Source of the DNA: Alphaproteobacteria bacterium
GTDB lineage: Bacteria > Pseudomonadota > Alphaproteobacteria > JAJUGE01
Length of the DNA: 64,000 bases
Assembly: GCA_029268305.1 (NCBI GenBank)
Contig: JAJUGE010000003.1
Coordinates: 1 to 64,000 of the forward strand
Direction: 5' to 3'
Positions 4,837-34,825 of the stretch are shown piece by piece. Position numbers and translations under genes: made by a program. The notes below the pieces were generated by a model that had not been told where the DNA came from, did not search any database, and saw nothing but the letters and a program-made list of their open reading frames with translations. Positions within the stretch are counted from its first letter, which is position 1. Each line of letters opens with the position of its first letter.

Positions 4837-6246
4837 ATGAGCAACACGTCTTTCGACCTCGCCCCCGTTCTCGCTCGCGCCGAGGCGGATTTCGACGGCT
4901 CCGTGCAACGCCTCTGCGATTTCCTGCGGATCGAGAGCGTCAGCACCGATCCGGCCTATGCGGTGAAGACCCGAGCCGCCGGCCAGTGGGTGGTGGACCA
5001 GCTGCGGGCGCTCGGGTTCGAAGCCGGCCTGCGCGACACCACCGGCCACCCTATGGTGGTCGCCCACCATCCCGGACCGCCGGGGACGAACGCGCCGCGC
5101 ATCCTCTATTACGGTCATTACGACGTGCAGCCGCCCGATCCGCTCGACCTCTGGGAGAGCCCGCCCTTCGAGCCGGCGATCGTCGAGGCGAAGCACGGCA
5201 AGCGGATCGTCGCGCGCGGTGCCGTCGACGACAAGGGTCAGGTCATGACGTGGCTCGAGGCGTTCCGCGCCTGGCATGCCGCCCACGGAACGATGCCGGT
5301 GCCGATTACCGTCCTGGTCGAGGGCGAGGAGGAATGCGGCAGCCCGAGCCTCCCGCCATTCCTCGAAGCCAATCGCGAGGAGTTGCAAGCGGCGGTCTGC
5401 ATGGTGAGCGACACCTCGAGCTGGGACATCGAAACGCCCGCCATCACCTACATGCTGCGCGGCCTTATGTACGCCGAGTTGACACTGCACGGCCCCAGCC
5501 GTGATCTGCACTCTGGCATGTATGGCGGGGCGGTCCTCAATCCCATCAACGCGCTGACCCGCATCCTCGGGCAACTTCACGACGACGAGGGCCGGGTGCA
5601 GATACCCGGCTTCTACGACGACGTCGCCGAACCCGGTGCCGAGGAGCTGGCACAATGGCGCTCGCTCGGTTTCGACGAGCAGGCGTTCCTGCAGGAGATC
5701 GGCCTCTCCACCCCTACCGGTGAATCCGGCCGGTCGCCGCTGGAGCGGCTCTGGTCGCGCCCGACCTGCGACCTAAACGGGATCGTCGGCGGCTATACCG
5801 GTGCGGGCGCCAAGACGGTGATCGCATCACACGCGATGGCGAAGCTGAGCTGCCGGCTCGTGCCGAACCAGGACCCGAACAAGATCCTCGCGGGCCTTCG
5901 CAGCTTCCTCGACGCGCGGACGCCGCCCGACGGCCGCTGGGAGATCGAGACCTTCGGCATGTCGCCGGCGATCCGCGTGCCGACTGACTCGCCTTACCTA
6001 AGGGCCGCGATCGACGGCCTCGGCGATGTCTACGAAAAGAAGCCGGTGCTGATCGGCTGCGGCGGATCGATCCCTGTCGTCGGAATGATCCAGTCGATCC
6101 TCGGCTTCGACTCGATCCTGGTCGGCTTCGGTCTGGAGGACGATCGCGTCCACTCGCCGAACGAGAAGTTCGAGGTTCGCTGTTATCGAAACGGCATCCT
6201 CTCCCATGCCGCCATTCTGGCGCGGCTGGCGGGGATGTCTGCGTGA
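4837..6246 (+). CDS. M20-family dipeptidase (zinc metallopeptidase)
   Basis: A 469-residue M20 peptidase of the dipeptidase/carnosinase-like type. Metal and catalytic blocks are visible: YGHYDVQPPDP (His ligand and catalytic Asp), GAVDDKGQ (bridging Asp), EGEEECGSPSL (catalytic Glu and ligand Glu), a dimerisation-domain His in GPSRDLHSGMYGG, and a C-terminal ligand His in DDRVHSPNEKF. ATG 4837 is preferred to the upstream in-frame ATG at 4807 because GCGGAG precedes it and the natural N-terminus MSNTSFDLAPVL follows. It converges with a second M20 gene 4 bases downstream. The substrate is probably a dipeptide or N-acyl amino acid. Confidence 0.9.
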   Translation: MSNTSFDLAPVLARAEADFDGSVQRLCDFLRIESVSTDPAYAVKTRAAGQWVVDQLRALGFEAGLRDTTGHPMVVAHHPGPPGTNAPRILYYGHYDVQPPDPLDLWESPPFEPAIVEAKHGKRIVARGAVDDKGQVMTWLEAFRAWHAAHGTMPVPITVLVEGEEECGSPSLPPFLEANREELQAAVCMVSDTSSWDIETPAITYMLRGLMYAELTLHGPSRDLHSGMYGGAVLNPINALTRILGQLHDDEGRVQIPGFYDDVAEPGAEELAQWRSLGFDEQAFLQEIGLSTPTGESGRSPLERLWSRPTCDLNGIVGGYTGAGAKTVIASHAMAKLSCRLVPNQDPNKILAGLRSFLDARTPPDGRWEIETFGMSPAIRVPTDSPYLRAAIDGLGDVYEKKPVLIGCGGSIPVVGMIQSILGFDSILVGFGLEDDRVHSPNEKFEVRCYRNGILSHAAILARLAGMSA

Positions 6247-6249
6247 ATC

Positions 6250-7413
6250 TCAGTCCATGCGCAGGATCGTGAGCGCGAGCGCCTTGGCTCGTGGCACCAT
6301 CGTGTCGAGATTGCAGTACTCCTCCGGGCTGTGGGCGCCGCCGCCGGTGGGTCCGGTCGCGCAGAGGGTAGGCGCGCCCACGTTGGCGGTGAACCCGGAG
6401 TCGGCCGAGCCGCCGGTGAACTCTCCCTCGACGCGATAGCCGATCTCGGCCGCGGCGGCGGCATAGCTCTCGAATACGCGCTGGCTCTCCGCATCGGGGT
6501 TGAGCGGCAGGAAGCCGCGCTGCTCGACGATCCTGGTCACGGCACCGGCGAGATGACTACGCCCGAGGATATCTTCGATCCTCTTCCATACCTCGTCGCG
6601 CTGCTGGTTGGTGACGAAGCGCACGTCGACCTCGGCCGAGGCATGGGGAGCCACGGTGTTGACCGAGCTGCCACCCTTGATCAGACCGACATTGACGCTG
6701 ATCCCCTTCTCGTAGTCGTTGAGGGCGTGTAGCTCCACAATCTTACGGGCCAGCTCCTCGATCGCGCTGATCCCGTCCTGCGGCCGCGCTCCGGAGTGTG
6801 CGGGCTTGCCGGTGATCTCGAACGTGAAGAAGGTCGCCCCCTTGCGCTGCTTCACGACATTCCCGGACTGACGCCCCGGCTCGGCGTTGAAGACAGCGCG
6901 GGCGTTGCGCGCCTCCCGCTCGATCACCGGCCGCGACGACGGCGAAGCGATCTCCTCGTCCGACGTATAGAGGCCGACCAGCGGAAACGGGGCGCCGCCG
7001 AAGCGCTTAAAGGCCTCGAGCACGAAGGTGTTGAGAACGAGGCCCGACTTCATGTCCGAGACGCCCGGCCCGTACGCGACATCCCCCTCGATCCGGAACG
7101 GCCGCTCCGCGACGGTCCCATCTGGAAAGACCGTATCGCGGTGTCCCATCAGGAGGACGTGCCGATTGGCACCGCCCGGTGCGGCAGGCACGACGGCGCG
7201 GATGCAATCGCCGAAGCGCTCGTGCGGCACCCGCTCGCTCGCGATGTCGCTCGCTGCGAGGTGCGTCTCGATCACCCGACCTACGGCATCGACGCCCGCC
7301 TTGTTGTAGCTGCCGGAGTCGATGTTCACGAGGTCCCGGAGCAGGTCCGTCATCGCCTGGCGTTGCCCGTCCAGCCAACCGAGGATCTCCCGCTCGCGAC
7401 TTGCATCCGACAT
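6250..7413 (-). CDS. M20-family peptidase, glutamate carboxypeptidase (CPG2)-like
   Basis: A 387-residue M20 protein with the CPG2-type arrangement: MGHRDTVFPDG, then PGVSDMKSG, then SDEEIASPSSR, followed by an inserted dimerisation domain (ITGKPAHSGARPQDG) and a C-terminal GGGAHSPEEY His ligand. Enzymes of this branch remove C-terminal glutamate or hydrolyse N-acyl amino acids. There is no signal peptide, so it is probably cytoplasmic, unlike secreted CPG2. It is divergent from the amidase gene at 7572, which suggests a shared amide or peptide catabolic theme, though no regulator is nearby. Confidence 0.88.
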   Translation of the reverse strand: MSDASREREILGWLDGQRQAMTDLLRDLVNIDSGSYNKAGVDAVGRVIETHLAASDIASERVPHERFGDCIRAVVPAAPGGANRHVLLMGHRDTVFPDGTVAERPFRIEGDVAYGPGVSDMKSGLVLNTFVLEAFKRFGGAPFPLVGLYTSDEEIASPSSRPVIEREARNARAVFNAEPGRQSGNVVKQRKGATFFTFEITGKPAHSGARPQDGISAIEELARKIVELHALNDYEKGISVNVGLIKGGSSVNTVAPHASAEVDVRFVTNQQRDEVWKRIEDILGRSHLAGAVTRIVEQRGFLPLNPDAESQRVFESYAAAAAEIGYRVEGEFTGGSADSGFTANVGAPTLCATGPTGGGAHSPEEYCNLDTMVPRAKALALTILRMD

Positions 7414-7571
7414 GGTCCGCCTCCGGCCGCCGTTGGTTTCCGATGTGGAATGCTAGGAGAGTGCCCTGCCGCGGGGCAATGCCTTCACCGGCATATGCTG
7501 GCAGAGACGGGTGGCCTCATGACGGGACAAGGTGCAAGATGCCGCGGCCCGCATTTCCTGCAGAGCGAACG

Positions 7572-24312: not shown

Positions 24313-25347
24313 TCAGAGCCTCGAACGTCGGGGCTCCGATCGCGGATCACGCGCAGGCGGGCTGCCCGGCACCCAGCCCGTGGGCAGGGTTGCCGGCTCC
24401 GACAAAGGTCGGCCGCGCGTGCGGATCAGGGAGAGCACGATCGACCCGCCGATCAGAACGAAGGTGATCAGGAGCGCGAGTTCCGTCGGGACGAACTTCC
24501 CCCCGTAGAAGTAGTTGGCGATCATCTTGCCGCCGACGACCACCAGCACCAGCGACAGCGCGTACTTGAGATAGATGAACCGCGGCACGATCCCCGCCAG
24601 CGCGAAATACAGTGCGCGCAATCCGAGAATGGCGAACACGTTCGAGGTGTAGACAATGAAGGGGTCGGTGGTGATCGCGAGGATCGCCGGAATCGAGTCG
24701 ACGGCGAACACCAGGTCGGTGATCTCGACCATCACCAGGACCAGAAACAGCGGCGTGACGAAGAGCAGTCCGGCGCGACGGACGAAGAACGCCTTGCCTT
24801 CGTAGTCTTCCGTCACCCGGAGTCCGCGGCAGAGCGCGTTCAGAACGATGTTGTTGTCGATGTCCGGCTTCTGGTCGGCGACGATCAGCATCTTCACCCC
24901 GGTAACGACCAGAAAGCCGCCGAAGACCAACGCCATCCAAGCGAAGCTGTGCATCAGCTGCACGCCTGCCAGGATCAGCAGCCCGCGCAGGACGAGAGCC
25001 CCCAGAATGCCCCAGAACAGCACGCGATGCTGGAGGCGAGCCGGAACCGAGAAGTAGGTGAAGAGCAGGACGAAGACGAAGATGTTGTCGACGCTCAGCG
25101 ACTTCTCGATCACGTAGCCGGTCAAGAAGTCGATGCCGTCCTGGCTTCCCCGGAGCCAGAAGAGGCCGGCGCCGAATGCTAGCGCGAGAAGAACGTAGCC
25201 GAGGCTGAGCCAGAGTGCTTCTGCGACCCGAATTTCCCGCTCCTTGCGATGAAGGACGCCGAGATCGAGTGCGAGGAGAAGAAGGACGAAGGCATTGAAG
25301 GCCAGCCACGGCCACCAGGAGAGGTCGAGCATCTGCGGACCCTGCAT
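24313..25347 (-). CDS. TerC-family membrane protein (Alx/YkoY type)
   Basis: A 344-residue polytopic membrane protein of the TerC/Alx family of metal (mainly manganese) exporters. It carries WWPWLAFNAFVLLLLALDLGV, EKSLSVDNIFVFVLLFTYF with conserved Asp, and EITDLVFAVDSIPAILAITTDPFIVYTSN, whose acidic residues lie inside membrane spans. A soluble arginine-rich tail (ARDPRSEPRRSRL) ends it. The start could be ATG 25347 or 25332. I looked for the manganese-sensing yybP-ykoY riboswitch in the leader and could not see it. The direction converges with tctA. Confidence 0.9.
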   Translation of the reverse strand: MQGPQMLDLSWWPWLAFNAFVLLLLALDLGVLHRKEREIRVAEALWLSLGYVLLALAFGAGLFWLRGSQDGIDFLTGYVIEKSLSVDNIFVFVLLFTYFSVPARLQHRVLFWGILGALVLRGLLILAGVQLMHSFAWMALVFGGFLVVTGVKMLIVADQKPDIDNNIVLNALCRGLRVTEDYEGKAFFVRRAGLLFVTPLFLVLVMVEITDLVFAVDSIPAILAITTDPFIVYTSNVFAILGLRALYFALAGIVPRFIYLKYALSLVLVVVGGKMIANYFYGGKFVPTELALLITFVLIGGSIVLSLIRTRGRPLSEPATLPTGWVPGSPPARDPRSEPRRSRL

Positions 25348-25539
25348 CTGCGGTCGCGCCCGTCGGCGCGAAGGCGAATGAGGGGGTCCGACATCACGGT
25401 AAACGGCTCAACCGCCAGAGGGGCCCGGACCCGGGTTCCAGCAGGAAATGGTCAGGGGCGGGCCATGTTCAAGAGGCAGCATCCGGATCGACGCCGGGCT
25501 CGATGACGCCGGCTGCTCCGCGAACTGCCGGCTCGATCC

Positions 25540-25579: not shown

Positions 25580-26116
25580 CTAGGCGTCTTTGGAACTGAT
25601 CAGGGCGAGAATATTCGGCACCGCCGCATCAGCCAGCGCCTCCAGTTCTTCGGGAGTGCGGTTCTGGATCGGGTGCGGCACGAAATGCAGAGCCGGGCTA
25701 AACCCTATCGCCTTCGACTGCGCCGCCGCGGCCGGCTCGAATTCTACCGTCGCCACCGCGCAGCCTGGAATACCGCGCCGGTCGAGCTCCGTGATGTCAT
25801 GCAAACTGCACGACGTGCACGAGCCTCAATCGGCCAGGCCTTCGACGACGACGTCACAGCGCTCGACGATATCCTGGATGACGTTCACCGGCGCCGGCTT
25901 GGTATGCGTCGGCTTGGCAAAGCGCAGTACGTTCAGGCCGTGCTCGGCGAGGCGCATCTCGACGCGGTCGAGGAACTCCTCGCTGCGCTCCTTGGAGATG
26001 CAGAGCAGGCCGATCGTCGCCGCCTTCAGGTCCGCCGGCGGCGGCACCCGCTCGCGCATTGCCGGCGCCGTCTCGGCGGTCGGGTCGCGCATCAGATAGG
26101 GCTCGTTCCGTATCAT
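25580..26116 (-). CDS. UGSC-family selenoprotein (in-frame UGA = selenocysteine)
   Basis: A 178-residue protein read through an in-frame TGA at 25826-25828, codon 97. The codons straight after it are Gly-Ser-Cys, then Thr-Ser-Cys, so the motif is U-G-S-C, the hallmark of a selenoprotein family known from computational surveys of marine microbes. Reading continues for 81 codons to a normal stop. Residues 1-96 (MIRNEPYLMR... ATIGLLCISKERSEEFLDRVE... CDVVVEGLAD) look like an alpha/beta domain. The tail has CAVATVEF and LHFVPHPIQNRT. Without readthrough the gene splits into two fragments that each make no sense. A SECIS hairpin follows the UGA. Its ATG overlaps the upstream stop (ATGA). The reaction is unknown, but a UxxC pair suggests redox chemistry. 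Sel genes and tRNA-Sec are outside this window. Confidence 0.9.
25790..25821 (-). promoter_or_regulatory. Bacterial SECIS element downstream of the Sec UGA
   Basis: On the minus-strand RNA, CGUG at bases 5-8 after the UGA pairs with CACG at bases 33-36, with a small internal loop. An 8-bp upper stem (GUCGUGCA with UGCAUGAC, one G-U) is closed by the triloop GUU, whose first base is 20 bases after the UGA. A G-U in the apical loop at about this distance is the bacterial SECIS requirement for SelB. Confidence 0.82.
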
Positions 26117-27549
26117 TCGGTGATCTCCTTCGTCACGACCTGGATCTCCTTTGCGTTCCGCTGTCCCGTCCAGCCGCCGATGATGGCGGACATGAGCCCG
26201 CCGCGGCCACCCGCGCGCACCAGCAGGAAATTCTCTCGCCCGAACTTGTCGACAAGGGCATCGCCGAGCGCCGGATCGACGCCGACGGGAACGCCGCCGA
26301 CACCCCGCGCCACCTCCGAGGCGGGCCGCTTCAGTGCCTCCCAGAGTGCGGCCTCGATATCGGCGCGCGACCAGCCCTCCGCCTTGTAGATGTCGTGGTG
26401 GTTGGGCGAGAGTACGAGCATGGCGCCGCCGCTGGCGTCGCTCGCCGACTTCGGGTGAGTCACCCGCCAAAGTCCCATGGCGAGCGAGCGCGTCAGCTCC
26501 TCCGGCGTGCGCGACTTCTGGTCGGAAAAGCCGCTGACGCCCTCGCCGTGGAACAGGGTCACAGTCGAGGCGCCGGGCGCGAAGCCGCGCGCGACAGAGA
26601 GCGGCGTCCAGTCCGGATCGGTCTCATCTTCGGCGAAGCAGAAGGTGTACTTGCCGGGATTGCCGAGGATGGCGCGGTCGATCTCCTGCGGCCTGCCGCC
26701 ACCCACGTTCCTGATCAGGAGCTGCAGCGCCCGCCCGATCGTCGCGTTGGCGCGATTCCCCTGCCCGAGTGCATTGCCGGCCCAGTTCATGCCGATCCGC
26801 TTCGCCACCGGTCCGTTCACCAGCACGACCGGTCCGGCGAAGTGCAGCGTGCAGAGAAGACCGTGCATGGCGAAGGCCGGCATCAACGCGGCTTCGATCA
26901 CCGTCAGCACCACCGGGAAGTAGTCGGGTCGGCAGCCGGCCATGACGGCGTTGATGGCGACCTTCTCGACCGTGCACTCGGCCAGGTTCGGTGGAATCAG
27001 GCCGATCACCTCGTCGGGCTTGCGCGACGTGCCCGCCAACATCCGAGCGATGCGCAGGTCGGTGGGCGGCACTACGGGCAGGCCATCGGTCCACCCGCGA
27101 TCGTATGCGGCCTCGATCGGATCTTCCCAGTCCGAGACCTCGATGGTGCGCGCCTTGAGCGCCAGGTCCCCGAAACGGAGCGCCAGCCGCTCCGGCATCC
27201 CCGGCTCTACGTTGAGCGCGCCGCACCCCGGTCGGCTCTCCGGCAGCTGAGTGCCGAGCCCCGCGATGCCGCTCACGCTTTCCCACTCGCCGCGATGCCA
27301 GCCTTCCGCGCGTGCGACCTCACGCCCCTCCTCGAGCCGAAAGAGAGTCGGCACCGTCTCGACCTTCAGCCGGTGGGAGCGCTCCAGCGTCTCGTCGTGC
27401 CGCAGGTCGGCGATCCCCTCCGGAAAGGTGGGGTCGTCCTGGGTGTAGACGGTGAGCCGCCGCCCGGCCGCGATTTCGCGCAGCACCGGTGCCACGAGCT
27501 CGCAGGTCGGGCACTCCCGCTTCACGATGGCGACCAGTTCTTCGGCCAT
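26113..27549 (-). CDS. Thioredoxin-fold plus DGLPVVPPT-domain protein, partner of the UGSC selenoprotein
   Basis: A 478-residue two-part protein. Residues 1-85 are a thioredoxin-like domain with a CPTC active site at 13-16 (MAEELVAIVKRECPTCEL) and a cis-Pro-type ETVPTLFRLEEG near 67. Residues from about 130 on form a large alpha/beta domain starting RGWTDGLPVVPPTDLRIARML and containing GMNWAGNALGQGNRANATIGRAL, a pattern I know from uncharacterised proteins. I chose ATG 27549 because GGGAAGAAG precedes it, and the 33 codons upstream do not look coding. Its stop overlaps the selenoprotein start, so both are made together. Probably a redox partner delivering electrons to the selenoprotein. The substrate is unknown. 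Confidence 0.8.
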   Translation of the reverse strand: MAEELVAIVKRECPTCELVAPVLREIAAGRRLTVYTQDDPTFPEGIADLRHDETLERSHRLKVETVPTLFRLEEGREVARAEGWHRGEWESVSGIAGLGTQLPESRPGCGALNVEPGMPERLALRFGDLALKARTIEVSDWEDPIEAAYDRGWTDGLPVVPPTDLRIARMLAGTSRKPDEVIGLIPPNLAECTVEKVAINAVMAGCRPDYFPVVLTVIEAALMPAFAMHGLLCTLHFAGPVVLVNGPVAKRIGMNWAGNALGQGNRANATIGRALQLLIRNVGGGRPQEIDRAILGNPGKYTFCFAEDETDPDWTPLSVARGFAPGASTVTLFHGEGVSGFSDQKSRTPEELTRSLAMGLWRVTHPKSASDASGGAMLVLSPNHHDIYKAEGWSRADIEAALWEALKRPASEVARGVGGVPVGVDPALGDALVDKFGRENFLLVRAGGRGGLMSAIIGGWTGQRNAKEIQVVTKEITE

Positions 27550-27660
27550 GGCTTCTTCCCAACCCGTTCCGCTGACGAATGCTAACGCCGCACAGCAGTG
27601 CCGCCAATGGAAATGGCCGCTTCCTCGATCTTTGCACGACGGGAACATCCCGGACGGCGC

Positions 27661-27687
27661 CTCGTTTATTCGTGTCAGCCAAACGAG
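27661..27687 (+). promoter_or_regulatory. Inverted repeat overlapping the ribosome site of the first Ku gene
   Basis: CTCGTTT at 27661-27667 and AAACGAG at 27681-27687 are exact complements with 13 bases between. The right arm runs into GAGG, the likely ribosome site 6-9 bases before the Ku ATG at 27693, so a fold would hide that site. It may equally be an operator. Confidence 0.35.
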
Positions 27688-27692
27688 GTCCC

Positions 27693-28499
27693 ATGGCGCC
27701 GCGCCCCTACTGGAAAGGCTATCTGAAGCTTTCGCTGGTCACCTGTCCGGTATCCCTGACGCCGGCGACGACAGAGCGCGAGAAGGTGCGCTTTCACACG
27801 ATCAATGCGAAGACCGGCAACCGCGTTCGCAGCCGCTATGTCGATGCGGATACGGGAAAGCCGGTGACGGAGGAGGACGAGGTCCGGGGCTACGAGGTCG
27901 AAGAGGGCCGCCACGTCGTCATCGAGGACGAGGAGCTCGAGGCGGTCGGGCTCGAAAGCACCCGCACGATCGACATCCAACAGTTCGTTCCGTCCGACAG
28001 CATCGAGTGGATCTGGTATGAGACGCCCTACTACCTGATGCCCGAAGACGAGGTGGCTCAGGAGGCGTTCGCCGTCATCCGCGAGGCCATGGCGGCCACG
28101 GAAACCGTGGGAATCTCGCGGCTGGTCCTCGCGCGCCGCGAGCGGGCGGTGATGCTGCAGCCTCGGGGCAAGGGCATCGTCCTCTGGACGCTCCGCTATG
28201 GCGACGAGGTGCGCGACCCGGAGGAGATCTTCGGCAAGACGAAAGAGAAGAAGCCGGAGGCGAAGCTCGTTTCGCTCGTCCGCAAGGTAATCGAGGACAA
28301 GACCGAGCCCTGGGATCCGTCGATGGTGCGCGATCCCGTCCAGGAGCGGCTGAAAGACATCATCGCTAGCAAGACAAAGAAAAAAGCCAAACCGAAGAAG
28401 CGCAAGGAGCAGGAGGAGCCGGAGACTCCGTCCAACGTCGTCAACATCATGGATGCGTTGCGGAAATCCCTCTCGCAGGAAAAGAAGAAGAGCAGCTGA
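27693..28499 (+). CDS. ku: Ku-type DNA end-binding protein (first copy)
   Basis: A 268-residue bacterial Ku, which forms a ring-shaped homodimer around broken DNA ends and recruits ligase D. The start MAPRPYWKGYLKLSLVTCPVSL is the typical Ku N-terminus. The beta-barrel core continues with KVRFHTINAKTGNRVRSRYVD, YLMPEDEVAQEAFAVI and VMLQPRGKGIVLWTLRY. A lysine-rich tail (KKKAKPKKRKEQEE) probably contacts DNA or ligase. A long upstream open frame from 27579 is not protein-like. It converges with ligD, sharing no spacing (stops adjoin). The second Ku copy is at 30989. Confidence 0.93.
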   Translation: MAPRPYWKGYLKLSLVTCPVSLTPATTEREKVRFHTINAKTGNRVRSRYVDADTGKPVTEEDEVRGYEVEEGRHVVIEDEELEAVGLESTRTIDIQQFVPSDSIEWIWYETPYYLMPEDEVAQEAFAVIREAMAATETVGISRLVLARRERAVMLQPRGKGIVLWTLRYGDEVRDPEEIFGKTKEKKPEAKLVSLVRKVIEDKTEPWDPSMVRDPVQERLKDIIASKTKKKAKPKKRKEQEEPETPSNVVNIMDALRKSLSQEKKKSS

Positions 28500-30989
28500 T
28501 CAGGCCGCCTTCTTCTTGTCGCGGCCGGGCAGCGGGCGAGCGGCCCGCCAGAAATCTTCCCACGGATCCCGGTCGAGAGACGCCAGCCGACTCACCGCGT
28601 TCTCGACGGTGAAATAATCGGGTCCGACCGCCGGGCTCAGCTCGCTCCAGGCAAGGGGCATGGAAACGGCCGCTCCCGGGCGTGCACGCGTGGAATACGG
28701 CGCCACCGCCGTCGATCCCCGCCCGTTGCGAAGATAATCGACCAGCATCTTGCCCTTGCGTTTAGCCTTCGCGATCGTGGCCACGAAGCGTTGCGGGCTG
28801 TCGGCTGCCATCTCGTCTGCGATCGACTTCGCGAACGCCTTCACCTCTTCCCAGCTTGCCCGTGGCTTCAGCGGCGCGACGACGTGCAGTCCCTTCCCGC
28901 CTGAGTTCTTCACGAAACTCTCCAGCCCCGCCGCTTTCAGCCTGTCCCGGACCTCTTCGGCCGCCTCGATCACGGCCTCCCAGGCCACATCGGGGCCGGG
29001 ATCCAGATCCATGTTGATGAAATCCGGCTTCTCGAGATCGCCGAGCTGCGAGCCCCAGGGATGGATCTCGAGAACGCCGCCTTGCACGAGCCCGAGCAGG
29101 CCAGGAAGACTATCTATGGCGATGATCGGTTCTTCCGCCTCGTCCTTCGGATCGTACGCCGTGAGGATTTCGGGCGATTGCCCGCGCCACGCGTGCTTCT
29201 GAAAGAAGCACTGGCCGCCGACGCCATCGGGGCAGCGCACGAGCGCGAGCGGCCGGTTGACGATGAAGGGCCCCATGCGGGACCAGACCTCCGTGTAGTA
29301 GTCGGCGAGGCCCTGCTTCGTGACCCCCGCCTCCTTCCAGTAAAGACGGTCCGGATGGGTGAGGCGTACCGCAGCGCGCGGCTTTTCGAGCGGCGCTTCC
29401 GCGGCCGATTCTCTCGACACTTCCTCCGGCCGCCGGTCCTCCCGCAGACCTCGGAACGAGGCGTGCCGGACGATCCCGTCGGCAGTCCACGCCCGGAACT
29501 CGACTTCGGCCACCAGCTCCGGCCGGACGAAGGTTACCTGGCGGGCCTCGTCGGCGGAGAGTTTCCGGGCGAACGGGCTTTTCCTTTGCTTTATCTCCTG
29601 GAGGCGCTTGAACAAATCCTTCGCCACCTGATGCGAGTATCCGGTGCCGACGCGGCCGGCATAGATCAGATCGCCGTCCTCGTAGTAGCCGAGCACTAGG
29701 GATCCGATCGCCTTGCGCGAGGTGCTTGACGGCACATACCCGGCGACGACGAACTCCTGCCGCTCGGCACATTTCGATTTGATCCAGCTCCGACCTCTGC
29801 CAGACGAATACGGAGCGTCCCGGTCCTTGGAGACGACGCCCTCCAGGCTCAGTCGACAGGCATGGCGGAGGACCAGGTCCCCGTCCTCCTCGAAATGCTC
29901 GCTGTATCGGAGTGCCGGCGGAGCACCCGCCATCACCGCCTGCAAGGCGAGCTTACGCCCGAGCTGAGCCGCGGGGCGGAGATCCTGTCCATCGACATAG
30001 AGGAGATCGAACGCGTAGAACACGAACCTGTCGGCGCGTCCGGCCGAGAGATCCGCCTGAAGAGTCGAGAAATCCGAGGCGCCGCCCGACCCCTCCACGA
30101 CCAGCTCTCCGTCGACGATCGCCTCGTGCACGGGCAGGCCCGACAGCGCGGCGACGACGTCCGCCCCGAATTTCTCCGTCCAGTCGAGCCCGCTTCGGGT
30201 CAACAGGGACACCTCGCCGTCGCGGATGTGTGCCTGCAGGCGGTACCCGTCGAACTTGATCTCGTGCAGCCATTTCTTGCCCGTAGGCGCCGACGGCTTC
30301 AGGGTGGCGAGGGCAGGCGGGATGAAGCCGGGGAACGCGGCCTTCTTCGCCTTTTTCGGAATCGGCAAGCTCGCCGTTTCCGGGCTTTCGATCTTCCCCG
30401 TCTTCGACGACCACCCCGGCGGCTCACCCTCCACCTGCTCGACCGTCCTGCCGGTCTTCACCGACTCTGGCCGCTCTTCCAGGATGTCCGGATCATCTTC
30501 ACCCCGCGCGAATTCGTCGTCGCCCTTGATGAGGAGCCAATTGTCCTTCTTCTCGCGCGGCTTTCGCGCCATGCGCACGAGATGCCAGCGTCCGCGCAGC
30601 TTCTCCCCGTGGATCTCGAAATCGAGATGCCCCTTGCGATATCCCTTCTTCGCGTCTCCGATCGGAGACCATCGACCTCGATCCCAGAGGATGACGGTCC
30701 CGCCGCCGTACTCTCCCTTCGGGATCGTTCCTTCGAAGTCGCCATATTCGAGCGGATGATCCTCGACATGAACGGCGAGTCGCTTCTCGCCGGGCACGAG
30801 GCTCGGCCCCTTCGTGACAGCCCAGCTCTTCAGAACGCCGTCCATCTCCAGACGAAGATCGTAGTGCAACCGCCGGGCGGCGTGTTTCTGTATCAGGTAG
30901 CTGTCGCCCTTGGCGGACCGTTTTACCTTTCCGGACGGCTCCGGCGTCGTGTTGAAATCACGCTTCTTGCGGTACTTGGTGAGCGCCAT
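28500..30989 (-). CDS. ligD: Multifunctional DNA ligase D (end joining)
   Basis: An 829-residue LigD with three catalytic modules. At the N-terminus is a 3'-phosphoesterase (HAARRLHYDLRLEMDG, IPKGEYGGGTVILWD, residues about 35-165). A central ATP-dependent ligase follows, with the adenylation motif EIKFDGYRLQAHI (Lys about 245) and its OB domain to about 530. A C-terminal polymerase/primase (RLYWKEAGVTKQGLADYY, then DFINMDLDPGPDVAWEA with catalytic Asps) runs to the end. The order phosphoesterase-ligase-polymerase suits a proteobacterial LigD rather than the mycobacterial order. Its ATG shares one base with the stop of the second Ku gene, so the two are coupled. Confidence 0.95.
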   Translation of the reverse strand: MALTKYRKKRDFNTTPEPSGKVKRSAKGDSYLIQKHAARRLHYDLRLEMDGVLKSWAVTKGPSLVPGEKRLAVHVEDHPLEYGDFEGTIPKGEYGGGTVILWDRGRWSPIGDAKKGYRKGHLDFEIHGEKLRGRWHLVRMARKPREKKDNWLLIKGDDEFARGEDDPDILEERPESVKTGRTVEQVEGEPPGWSSKTGKIESPETASLPIPKKAKKAAFPGFIPPALATLKPSAPTGKKWLHEIKFDGYRLQAHIRDGEVSLLTRSGLDWTEKFGADVVAALSGLPVHEAIVDGELVVEGSGGASDFSTLQADLSAGRADRFVFYAFDLLYVDGQDLRPAAQLGRKLALQAVMAGAPPALRYSEHFEEDGDLVLRHACRLSLEGVVSKDRDAPYSSGRGRSWIKSKCAERQEFVVAGYVPSSTSRKAIGSLVLGYYEDGDLIYAGRVGTGYSHQVAKDLFKRLQEIKQRKSPFARKLSADEARQVTFVRPELVAEVEFRAWTADGIVRHASFRGLREDRRPEEVSRESAAEAPLEKPRAAVRLTHPDRLYWKEAGVTKQGLADYYTEVWSRMGPFIVNRPLALVRCPDGVGGQCFFQKHAWRGQSPEILTAYDPKDEAEEPIIAIDSLPGLLGLVQGGVLEIHPWGSQLGDLEKPDFINMDLDPGPDVAWEAVIEAAEEVRDRLKAAGLESFVKNSGGKGLHVVAPLKPRASWEEVKAFAKSIADEMAADSPQRFVATIAKAKRKGKMLVDYLRNGRGSTAVAPYSTRARPGAAVSMPLAWSELSPAVGPDYFTVENAVSRLASLDRDPWEDFWRAARPLPGRDKKKAA

Positions 30990-31837
30990 CAGCTGGCCTT
31001 GCGGCGCTCGGCAGGAGCGGCCTTGTTCCGGGAACGCGCCTTCGACTTCTTCGGCGTTTTGCCCGACGCCTTCGCGCTCTCCCGCAGGGCATCCAGGAGA
31101 TTGGTGACCTTGGTCTCCTTGGGAGGCGGCGGTGCCTTGATCTCGCGGCCCTCCATCTTGGCCTTCACGAGTTCCGCCAGAGCCTCATCGTAGCGGTCGT
31201 CGAATTTGCGCGGGTCGAACTTGCCGGACTTCGTATCGATGATGTGTTTGGCGAGGTCGAGCATTTCGCCTTCGATCTTAAACTCCGGCAGATCCTCGAA
31301 CACGTCGTCGGCCGAGCGAACTTCGTAGTCGAAGTTGAGCGTATGCGCGACCAGCCCTGGGCCCTGGGCCCTGAGCATCAGCGTGCGAACCCTTCGGAAC
31401 AGCACCGCGCGGCCGAGCGCGGCCACCTTCTGCCGACGCATTCCTTCCCGCAATACAGCGAAGGATTCGCCCACGACATCATCCGTCGGGGCGATGTAGT
31501 AGGGCTTGTCGAAATAGACCGTGTCCACATCCGGGCACTGAATGAAGGTATCGATGCGGATGGTCTTGTCGCTCTCCGGTACCGCCTCGGCGATCTCCTC
31601 CGGCTCCAGGATCACGTATTTGCCACCGTCCACTTCATAGCCCTTCACCTGCTGATCTCGCTCGACCGGCTTCTCGGTTTCCTCGTCGACGTACTCACGG
31701 TGCACGCGGTTACCGGTACGTCGATTGAGGATGTGGAAGGAGATGCGCCCCGACGTCGTCGCGCCGGCATAGAGGGAGACCGGAAACGCCAGCTCTCCCA
31801 CCTTCACATACCCCTTCCACGTGGCACGTGGCGCCAT
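30989..31837 (-). CDS. ku: Ku-type DNA end-binding protein (second copy)
   Basis: A 282-residue Ku paralogue. It starts MAPRATWKGYVKVGELAFPVSL and has RISFHILNRRTGNRVHREYVD, IQCPDVDTVYFDKPYYIAP and the later GPGLVAHTLNFDYEVR. The C-terminus is Lys/Arg-rich (KASGKTPKKSKARSRNKAAPAERRKAS). ATG 31837 has a very good GAGGGGAG, while the longer frame from 31870 lacks one. The stop overlaps the ligD start (TGATG). Two Kus may form hetero- or separate homodimers, as seen in rhizobia. A hairpin sits just upstream of its ribosome site. Confidence 0.93.
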   Translation of the reverse strand: MAPRATWKGYVKVGELAFPVSLYAGATTSGRISFHILNRRTGNRVHREYVDEETEKPVERDQQVKGYEVDGGKYVILEPEEIAEAVPESDKTIRIDTFIQCPDVDTVYFDKPYYIAPTDDVVGESFAVLREGMRRQKVAALGRAVLFRRVRTLMLRAQGPGLVAHTLNFDYEVRSADDVFEDLPEFKIEGEMLDLAKHIIDTKSGKFDPRKFDDRYDEALAELVKAKMEGREIKAPPPPKETKVTNLLDALRESAKASGKTPKKSKARSRNKAAPAERRKAS

Positions 31838-31853
31838 CCGAAGCACTCCCCTC

Positions 31854-31871
31854 GTTGAGTTTCGACTCAAC
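31854..31871 (-). promoter_or_regulatory. Perfect dyad next to the ribosome site of ku-ligD
   Basis: On the minus strand GTTGAGT-CGAA-ACTCAAC is a 7-bp stem with a CGAA loop, ending one step before GAGGGGAG, the ribosome site of the second Ku gene. It could be an operator or an RNA hairpin that tunes translation of the end-joining pair. Confidence 0.45.
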
Positions 31872-32966: not shown

Positions 32967-33950
32967 TCACATCTTCGGCGGAATGCTCGTATAGGTGACC
33001 CGCTCCGGCGCGACCTTCTTCAGGAGATCCGGGTAGACGAACTTCTCCCAATCGAGGTCCTTCTGCAGCTTGCCGATCCGCTTCAGCTGCTCCTCGACCG
33101 TGGCGATGTTCTCCATCGTGCCGTCGCTCAGGTCCATGTTGAAGTCGAGCTTCGGCATCAGCTCGGTCGCGAGATCGAGCGGCATCCGGAGGAAGTTCGC
33201 CACCATCTGGGTAGCCGCCTCGCGGTCGTCGTTGATGAGCTCGGTCGCCTCTACCATTGAGCGCATGAAGGCTTCGGCCGTCTCGGGATTTTCCTCGATC
33301 CAGTCGCGGTTCATGAACACCAGGTTGCGGAGATTGAGGAAGCCTTCGTTGTCCAGCAGGATCTTCGCTCCCTCAACCGACATCACCGCCCGGGTCGGCC
33401 ACGGCTCCCAGACGCTGAAGGCGTCGATGTTGCCCCGCTCCAGCGCCGCGACCATCTCCGGCGCTTCGACGTTGACGACCTCGTAATCCTCCGCCTTCAG
33501 GTTGAGGTTCTTGAGGACCGAGAGCCAGAACGTCTCGCTGCCGGTCGCCTGCGCCACGCCGACCCGCTTCCCCTTCAGATCCTCGATGGTCTTGATCTGA
33601 TCGTTGGCGACGACCGAGAGCCAGCGCTTCAGGAACGTGCCCTCGCCGACGGTGACGACCCTGTCGTCTACCTGGTTGTTGAGAACGCCTGAATTTTCCG
33701 AGCCATACGCGGCATGGACCTGATTCCCGATCAGGAAGGCCACCATGGCCGAGCCGGACGGACCGGTATTCACCGAGACGTCCAGGCCGTTCTTCTCGAA
33801 GATCCCCGATTCCTTCGCCACGTAGAATTGGGAGAAGGCCGGGTCCACCCCCGTCGCGATCGTCATCTTCGTCAGCTCGGCCGCGACGGCCGCGCCGCCC
33901 GCCGCCAGAGCCAATCCGGCGGCGGCGAGCACTGTTGCAATTTTCTTCAC
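32967..33950 (-). CDS. ABC transporter substrate-binding protein (NitT/TauT/SsuA-like)
   Basis: A 327-residue periplasmic protein with a signal peptide (KKIATVLAAAGLALAAGGAAVAAE). Its core starts MTIATGVDPAFSQFYVAKESGIFEKNGLDV, the pattern of nitrate/taurine/sulfonate-type binding proteins, and includes GKRVGVAQATGSETFWL and NIDAFSVWEPWPTRAV. GTG 33950 is chosen because GAGGGAG lies 9 bases before it. The longer open frame to 34766 is a shadow of the permease gene. It is the last gene of a unit with permease, ATPase and an amidase. Confidence 0.88.
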   Translation of the reverse strand: MKKIATVLAAAGLALAAGGAAVAAELTKMTIATGVDPAFSQFYVAKESGIFEKNGLDVSVNTGPSGSAMVAFLIGNQVHAAYGSENSGVLNNQVDDRVVTVGEGTFLKRWLSVVANDQIKTIEDLKGKRVGVAQATGSETFWLSVLKNLNLKAEDYEVVNVEAPEMVAALERGNIDAFSVWEPWPTRAVMSVEGAKILLDNEGFLNLRNLVFMNRDWIEENPETAEAFMRSMVEATELINDDREAATQMVANFLRMPLDLATELMPKLDFNMDLSDGTMENIATVEEQLKRIGKLQKDLDWEKFVYPDLLKKVAPERVTYTSIPPKM

Positions 33951-33997
33951 GATCCGTACTCCCTCTGGTGCGGGCCGAGGCCCGATCTCGCCGGCCG

Positions 33998-34825
33998 TCA
34001 GGCGACCGGCGAATAGCGGCCGGCAAAGGCGAAGATCGCCCAGCGAAACAGGCGGTCTATGACGAAGCCGAGGAGCCCGAGCGACACCAATGCGACGAAA
34101 ATGTCGTCGACCAGCATGTAGAGTCGGGAGTCCCACAGCATCTTGCCGAGCCCCTCGTTCGCGGCCACCAACTCCGCGGCAACGATCGTCACGAACGAGT
34201 TCGCCATCGCGAGCCGCATGCCGGTGAGGATGTATGGCACCGTGGCCGGCAGAGCGACGTAGCGGAAGACCTGGAACGAAGATGCGCCGAGCGACCGGGC
34301 GGCACGAGTCTTGTTCTTGGCGATGGCACCCACCCCGGCAGCGGTGTTCAGAATCACGATGAAAATCGTCGTGTAGATGATCAGGAATATCTTCGATTCT
34401 TCGCCGATGCCGAACCAGATCACCGCGACCGTGATCATTGCGACCGCCGGGATGAAGCGAAAGAACTCGGTGTACGGCTCGAGGATCTTGCGGACAGCCG
34501 GAAACGATCCCATCGCGAGGCCGATCGGGATTCCTGCGAGCGAGCCGAGAAAGAAGCCGATCAGGATGCGGCGGAGGCTGACGGCGATGTGCTCCAGCAG
34601 GACGCCGGACCAGATAAGAACGCCGGCCTTGGCCAGCACCTGACCGGGTGGAGGGAAAAGCGCCGAGCCGACGAGGTAGACCGCAGCCAGATGCCAGATC
34701 ACGAAGAGGCTCGCGAAACCGATGAGGTATCCGCCATAGCCCCGCGAGATCGACAGCGGGTTCCATCCGGGTGCGCCAGCCGACTTGACGGTCCCCTGCC
34801 GGCGCAACGAGATCGCCTTGCTCAT
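33998..34825 (-). CDS. ABC transporter permease (NitT/TauT type)
   Basis: A 275-residue inner-membrane protein with about six hydrophobic segments. The conserved EAA loop sits in [28 protein letters not shown], and [22 protein letters not shown] precedes it, as in SsuC/TauC. It begins with a basic N-terminal tail. The ATG overlaps the ATPase stop by 4 bases, so the two are coupled. It forms the channel for the solute caught by the binding protein downstream. Confidence 0.92.

Follow-up and report, generated by a model that had tools for sequence, protein, structure and literature searches.

Glycine reductase and D-proline reductase are among the closest described systems to the locus analyzed here. 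In these enzymes, one subunit is believed to supply a selenocysteine (Sec) selenolate that attacks the substrate held by another subunit, and the selenenylsulfide that forms is reduced by a dithiol (PMC10298544). A fluoroacetate case of the same chemistry was also described (PMC10838667). The UGSC family itself was described by 2008 by Zhang and Gladyshev as 'UGSC-containing protein'; in that survey, a thioredoxin-like fold was guessed for it, and a domain left without a name ('Unknown_1') was reported as fused to it (PMC2398784). Reviews of 2022 (PMC9312934) and 2026 (PMC13188914) still list UGSC without a function.

Here, we analyzed a window of 64,000 nucleotides, i.e. positions 1 to 64,000 of contig JAJUGE010000003.1 from an alphaproteobacterial genome assembly (GCA_029268305.1). 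Because the family was described by 2008, the UGSC gene in the window is a further member of a known family. New are a partner gene that overlaps it and encodes what we call the DGLP domain, a predicted flavodoxin/Rossmann-like fold together with probable remote kinship to GrdB and PrdB, and associated dithiol modules. For the near-obligate partner, the dithiol modules and the GrdB/PrdB link, no statement was found in the searchable literature, which excludes most subscription papers and all supplements.

The UGSC gene and its decoding

The features of the gene pair, all on the minus strand, are as follows:

25580-26116, minus strand: UGSC-family selenoprotein gene, 178 amino acids including Sec at residue 97 (U97), stop codon within the coordinates
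25826-25828, minus strand: in-frame TGA read as Sec (U97), opening the UGSC motif (UxxC), a conserved column in relatives
25796-25814, minus strand: bSECIS-like hairpin with GUU as apical loop and a stem of 8 bp that begins 11 nt after the TGA
26125-26130, minus strand: AAGGAG, similar to a Shine-Dalgarno sequence, 8 nt ahead of the start codon of UGSC, read directly
26113-27549, minus strand: partner gene, 478 amino acids, its stop codon TGA overlapping the UGSC start codon (ATGA)
27298-27540, minus strand: N-terminal thioredoxin-like domain of the partner, CPTC motif at 27502-27513
26122-27150, minus strand: C-terminal DGLP domain of the partner (WTDGLPVVPPT...NAVMAGCRPDY...NATIGRA)

The UGSC open reading frame starts with ATG at 26116 and comprises 96 codons, the TGA, the sequence GSCTSC and in total 81 residues after Sec, followed by TAG at 25582-25580. 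Re-reading reproduced exactly the 96 codons, the TGA at 25826-25828, Gly-Ser-Cys and the 78 further codons given by the first-pass annotation. The resulting read-through protein of 178 amino acids (MIRNEPY...GLADUGSCTSCSLHD...SSKDA) was matched by NCBIfam model NF041046 over residues 33-173 (E 5e-37) with a score near the cut-off (127.1 vs 125 bits), and by Pfam model PF24696 over residues 10-173 (125.8 bits, cut-off 25). In a raw six-frame search of the genome with TGA left as stop, the same gene scored 119.8 bits against NF041046. Since the matches to both models cover both sides of the TGA, the read-through is not due to chance. Both curated cut-offs are thus passed by the joined sequence, in agreement with the family identity proposed in the first-pass annotation, and Sec-Gly-Ser-Cys and the UGA with a bSECIS-like hairpin are further features shared with the family. 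Judged from its sequence, 25580-26116 is a genuine selenoprotein gene of the known, uncharacterised UGSC family. The first-pass description of the role as undescribed holds insofar as the family is still uncharacterised in the 2026 review (PMC13188914), but the family was already known in 2008 at the latest (PMC2398784), and Pfam and NCBIfam models exist for it.

In an alignment of 98 UGSC sequences, U97 (entered as Cys), G98, C100 and F126 are invariant, and K42, K68, D107 and H148-P149 are conserved as well. The first-pass annotation had staked its claim on a conserved U/C column at this position; the codon is TGA in 97 of the 98 relatives and Cys in one, and the claim stands. Exactly one TGA was present in each of 31 UGSC matches from the own genome and 12 other genomes of its class. 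The sole Cys form among the 98 sequences belongs to Elioraea rosea, where the hairpin loop reads TCG instead of GTN and no selA match above the cut-off was found in the genome. The Sec form is carried, for example, by the cultivable Pseudonocardia bannensis (L129).

For the hairpin, alignment columns 15-22 pair with columns 26-33, the loop is GUN in 87 of 87 sequences, and 94% of the alignment cells of the stem are paired. For the inner seven pairs, 96.6% pairing was observed vs 65% (maximum 73%) with random synonymous codons drawn by the codon usage of neighboring partner genes. Dealing the observed codons among the sequences changed this value little (96.0%), and the evidence for the hairpin therefore lies in codon choice more than in covariation. 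In the subtype with the motif ending in SSW, G:C replaces a C:G pair, along with changes from Cys to Trp and from Leu to Phe.

The Sec machinery, which the first-pass annotation had named as a check, is completely present in the own genome (about 4.0 Mb, 226 contigs, 92% complete). The genes selA (601.6 bits) and selB (429.7 bits) are located side by side on contig C29 and selD (314.5 bits) on contig C8, all above the cut-off. The tRNA-Sec on contig C50 also exceeds its cut-off (72 bits) and is called by ARAGORN with anticodon tca. Co-occurrence was analyzed in 96 genomes, i.e. the own genome and 95 of the same class, in which UGSC was found in 13, selA above the cut-off in 15, and both in 12. 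Hence selA accompanies 12/13 UGSC-bearing vs 3/83 other genomes (Fisher p 9e-12), and the lone UGSC-bearing genome without selA is 77% complete. Homologues of selA and selB, with neighbor clusters named by HMM from one representative each, are also among the commonest neighbors (9 and 10 loci, respectively, of those fetched via partner or UGSC).

The DGLP partner and its pairing with UGSC

The UGSC gene overlaps the upstream partner gene by 4 bases and has its own ribosome binding site. The longest open reading frame of the partner starts at 27648 (511 amino acids); homologues begin at its residue 34-38, and the ATG at 27549 is the likely start. In the N-terminal domain, the CPTC motif is found at the place expected for the Thioredoxin/ResA family and the matches are weak (E 0.0034 by HMM, E 0.08 against thioredoxins in the PDB); one relative matches ResA at 1.1e-4. 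Unlike members of that family, the partner has this similarity in one domain only and stays below the family cut-offs. The C-terminal DGLP domain contains the invariant residues D188-G189-x-P191, A237-G238, P241, G279-P280, R306 and E340 and the near-invariant C239 (28/29; all in the numbering of the 511-amino-acid frame). No Pfam or NCBIfam model matched it in a first set of 10 and a second of 67 partner sequences, and a profile search of the PDB gave no match. By these searches, the partner is a widespread protein family outside Pfam and NCBIfam, with named hosts among Alpha-, Beta- and Gammaproteobacteria, Desulfatitalea, Myxococcota, Chloroflexi, Acidobacteriota, Pseudonocardia and Acidimicrobiia. 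Judging from their names, we take most named hosts not to be amino-acid-fermenting anaerobes, unlike those of GrdB and PrdB.

Further features were detected around the gene pair. Just downstream of UGSC lies a TerC/Alx membrane protein gene (24313-25347), preceded by a terC regulatory RNA (RF03067, 62.9 bits; 25379-25436, minus strand). A bacterial end-joining cluster with a DNA ligase D gene between two Ku genes occupies 27579-31870, the nearer ku gene being divergent from the selenoprotein pair. The C-terminal half of a protein of 599 amino acids (32970-34766, minus strand) is an NMT1/SsuA-type substrate-binding protein, while its N-terminal ~270 residues gave no match.

In 28 of the 30 loci retrieved with UGSC, the partner adjoins it or is fused to it. 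When the partner was used as query instead, 578 confirmed stretches were obtained in reference genomes; among the best 80 of these 578, UGSC lies on the same strand at a distance of at most 400 bases in 67 loci, two loci are cut by the contig end, and 11 have no UGSC immediately adjacent. For seven loci with DGLP partner genes, no UGSC was present in the fetched stretch. Such partners without a nearby UGSC may act in trans or with another component. Fusion polypeptides of UGSC and DGLP occur in five loci. One of them was modelled at pTM 0.92, which is consistent with one compact enzyme; the fused model had no fold match in the PDB at E≤0.001.

The following architectures were distinguished:

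Architecture A (window): thioredoxin-like domain plus DGLP, then UGSC(T/S)C; 74 of 78 partners have CxTC or CPxC
Architecture B: DGLP with C-terminal CxDC tail, then UGSCSSC (6/6)
Architecture C: UGSCSSW, then two DGLP proteins; a thioredoxin-reductase-like flavoprotein (E 1e-49 for the representative) adjoining in four loci
Architecture D: UGSC-DGLP fusion of ~600 amino acids (GMGCUGSCTPA), then a second DGLP protein
Architecture E: fusion with UGACATAC and a CEGGVC tail

A dithiol module is present in most architectures; in the fused (TPA-type) loci no obvious one was seen. The own genome has one of each architecture, on contigs C3 (window, A), C13 (B), C26 (C), C9 (D) and C121 (E). These five UGSC genes of five subtypes each have their own DGLP partner or fusion, and such paralogues within one genome suggest that substrates have diversified. 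Beside the partner in Candidatus Blastococcus massiliensis, the UGSC gene appears split between two frames (5866-7565 of the fetched stretch, L127), apparently a broken gene or a sequencing error. A regular-expression match to UASCAT in another locus (L065) was spurious and left out.

Predicted fold and probable kinship with GrdB and PrdB

The AlphaFold2 model of the UGSC protein, calculated from an alignment of 98 rows, has a mean pLDDT of 95.3 and consists of five alternating beta-alpha units, with Sec placed at the start of helix 98-113. The top fold matches in the PDB are mostly flavodiiron, flavodoxin, TIR and corrinoid-binding domains, at TM scores below 0.5 by query; no relatives of solved structure were found by sequence. 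Based on the model and these best matches, the UGSC domain is predicted to be flavodoxin/Rossmann-like and not thioredoxin-like. The thioredoxin fold guessed in 2008 finds no support in the model, with its five beta-alpha units and flavodoxin-type matches.

The models that describe the Sec-bearing subunits are TIGR01917, NF040794, NF040795, TIGR04483 and PF07355. Among the 98 UGSC members, 66 match the GrdB model TIGR01917 and 61 the GrdF model NF040794 (best 6e-6). The protein of the window matches TIGR01917 over residues 87-153, around Sec, and does not reach the whole-protein cut-offs for GrdB (17.5 vs 602 bits for TIGR01917, 12.3 vs 65 bits for TIGR01918). With hhalign, UGSC was aligned to Sec-containing PrdB/GrdB-like proteins bearing the motif UPVCHQT, taken as reference from other genomes, at E 4.6e-5 and a probability of only 69%, U falling on U and C on C. 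Matches to PF07355 from the own class were rejected as reference; none contained a TGA inside the match, and an automatic UxxC search gave only noise. Such Sec-containing PrdB/GrdB-like proteins (UPVCHQT, UPDCCRS, UPLDHQT; L179-L188) were encountered, in some cases several per genome, in UGSC-bearing genomes.

UGSC resembles GrdB, GrdF and GrdH of glycine, sarcosine and betaine reductase and PrdB of D-proline reductase in the UxxC motif with Sec aligned to Sec, in the segment after UxxC up to 'GIP' and in an 'HP' motif. Taken together, the comparison lends moderate support to a remote homology between the UGSC Sec domain and the Sec part of GrdB/PrdB. By analogy, UGSC would likewise act with a second subunit in a complex and draw electrons from a dithiol. 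Unlike these proteins, UGSC matches the Sec-bearing part only, and its partner is unrelated to GrdE/PrdA by sequence. The partner was considered as a GrdE/PrdA homologue and rejected, with no GrdE/PrdA match in Pfam or NCBIfam; a search with PF09338 in 11 genomes with the pair or the partner gene also gave no match, but neither did the control. Given this lack of resemblance between the DGLP partner and GrdE/PrdA, there is no support for a pyruvoyl cofactor.

Proposed function of the UGSC-DGLP pair

On balance, we favor the view that UGSC and DGLP form a two-component, thiol-recharged selenol reductase which resembles glycine and proline reductase without being a member of that group. The UxxC motif, the near-obligate second subunit and the dithiol module are the basis for this proposal, in which the pair would act like glycine or D-proline reductase with a different partner. 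The UGSC protein and its partner would form one enzyme, with the selenolate of Sec in the UGSC subunit positioned where a helix begins, like that in the GrdB/PrdB Sec domain, and the DGLP domain completing the active site and probably binding the substrate. The selenolate would attack an electrophilic centre, presumably carbon, of a small organic molecule and would be released as a selenenylsulfide with C100 of the UxxC motif. A dithiol module, in the window the CPTC domain of the partner, would then re-reduce the selenenylsulfide; in other subtypes, this could be done by the Cys-rich tail of the partner or by the adjoining thioredoxin-reductase-like flavoprotein.

The gene neighborhood was evaluated for hints on the substrate. 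No metabolic operon was found at the UGSC loci, where neighbors beyond the partner and the sel genes vary by locus. Sets containing thiolase, MaoC-like and acyl-CoA genes recur, but these are specific to lineages and do not converge; they were therefore rejected as a guide. In nine loci, the gene immediately downstream on the same strand encodes a thiolase; eight of these loci also have an upstream small membrane protein in common.

A less likely reading is a general thiol or peroxide oxidoreductase, in which the Sec/Cys pair reduces disulfides, peroxides or sulfoxides, the thioredoxin-like partner serves only as electron donor or scaffold, and no carbon-heteroatom bond is cleaved. The UxxC motif, the further Cys (TSC) and the thioredoxin- and thioredoxin-reductase-like modules would fit any thiol-recycled selenoenzyme, and the 2008 survey placed UGSC among thiol oxidoreductase-like proteins (PMC2398784). 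However, the predicted UGSC fold is neither that of thioredoxin nor that of peroxiredoxin, UGSC is closest in sequence to the Sec domain of GrdB/PrdB, and the part retained throughout the architectures and joined to UGSC in fusions is DGLP, not the thioredoxin module. Considerably more improbable is the binding of a metal or metalloid (mercury, arsenic, copper) by Sec for sequestration or detoxification without redox catalysis, as metal binding was proposed for some other uncharacterised selenoproteins (PMC13188914); no metal resistance genes were seen in the annotated part of the most recurrent neighbor clusters, and K42, K68, D107, F126 and H148-P149 together with the large partner domain resemble an active site. 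That the TGA is a real stop, as in the standard code, followed by a decayed part or a separate fragment, is hardly credible given its retention in 97 of 98 relatives, the conserved protein and hairpin beyond it, the complete Sec machinery, and its replacement by Cys in a genome without selA above the cut-off.

Returning to the thiol-recharged selenol reductase, UGSC and DGLP could tentatively be regarded as a new class of two-component selenoenzymes, in which the Sec domain of glycine/proline reductase is joined by an undescribed partner fold replacing GrdE/PrdA. Such a class would occur in Proteobacteria, Actinobacteria, Chloroflexi and others, with at least five subtypes in a single genome, and might cleave small organic molecules reductively in contexts other than amino-acid fermentation. 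The most informative parts of the locus, the partner gene with its overlap and the relationship to GrdB/PrdB, are both absent from the first-pass annotation. The near-constant partner or fusion and the GrdB/PrdB-like Sec domain turn the orphan UGSC protein into a testable enzyme by indicating the complex to produce, the residues to mutate and the electron donors worth testing.
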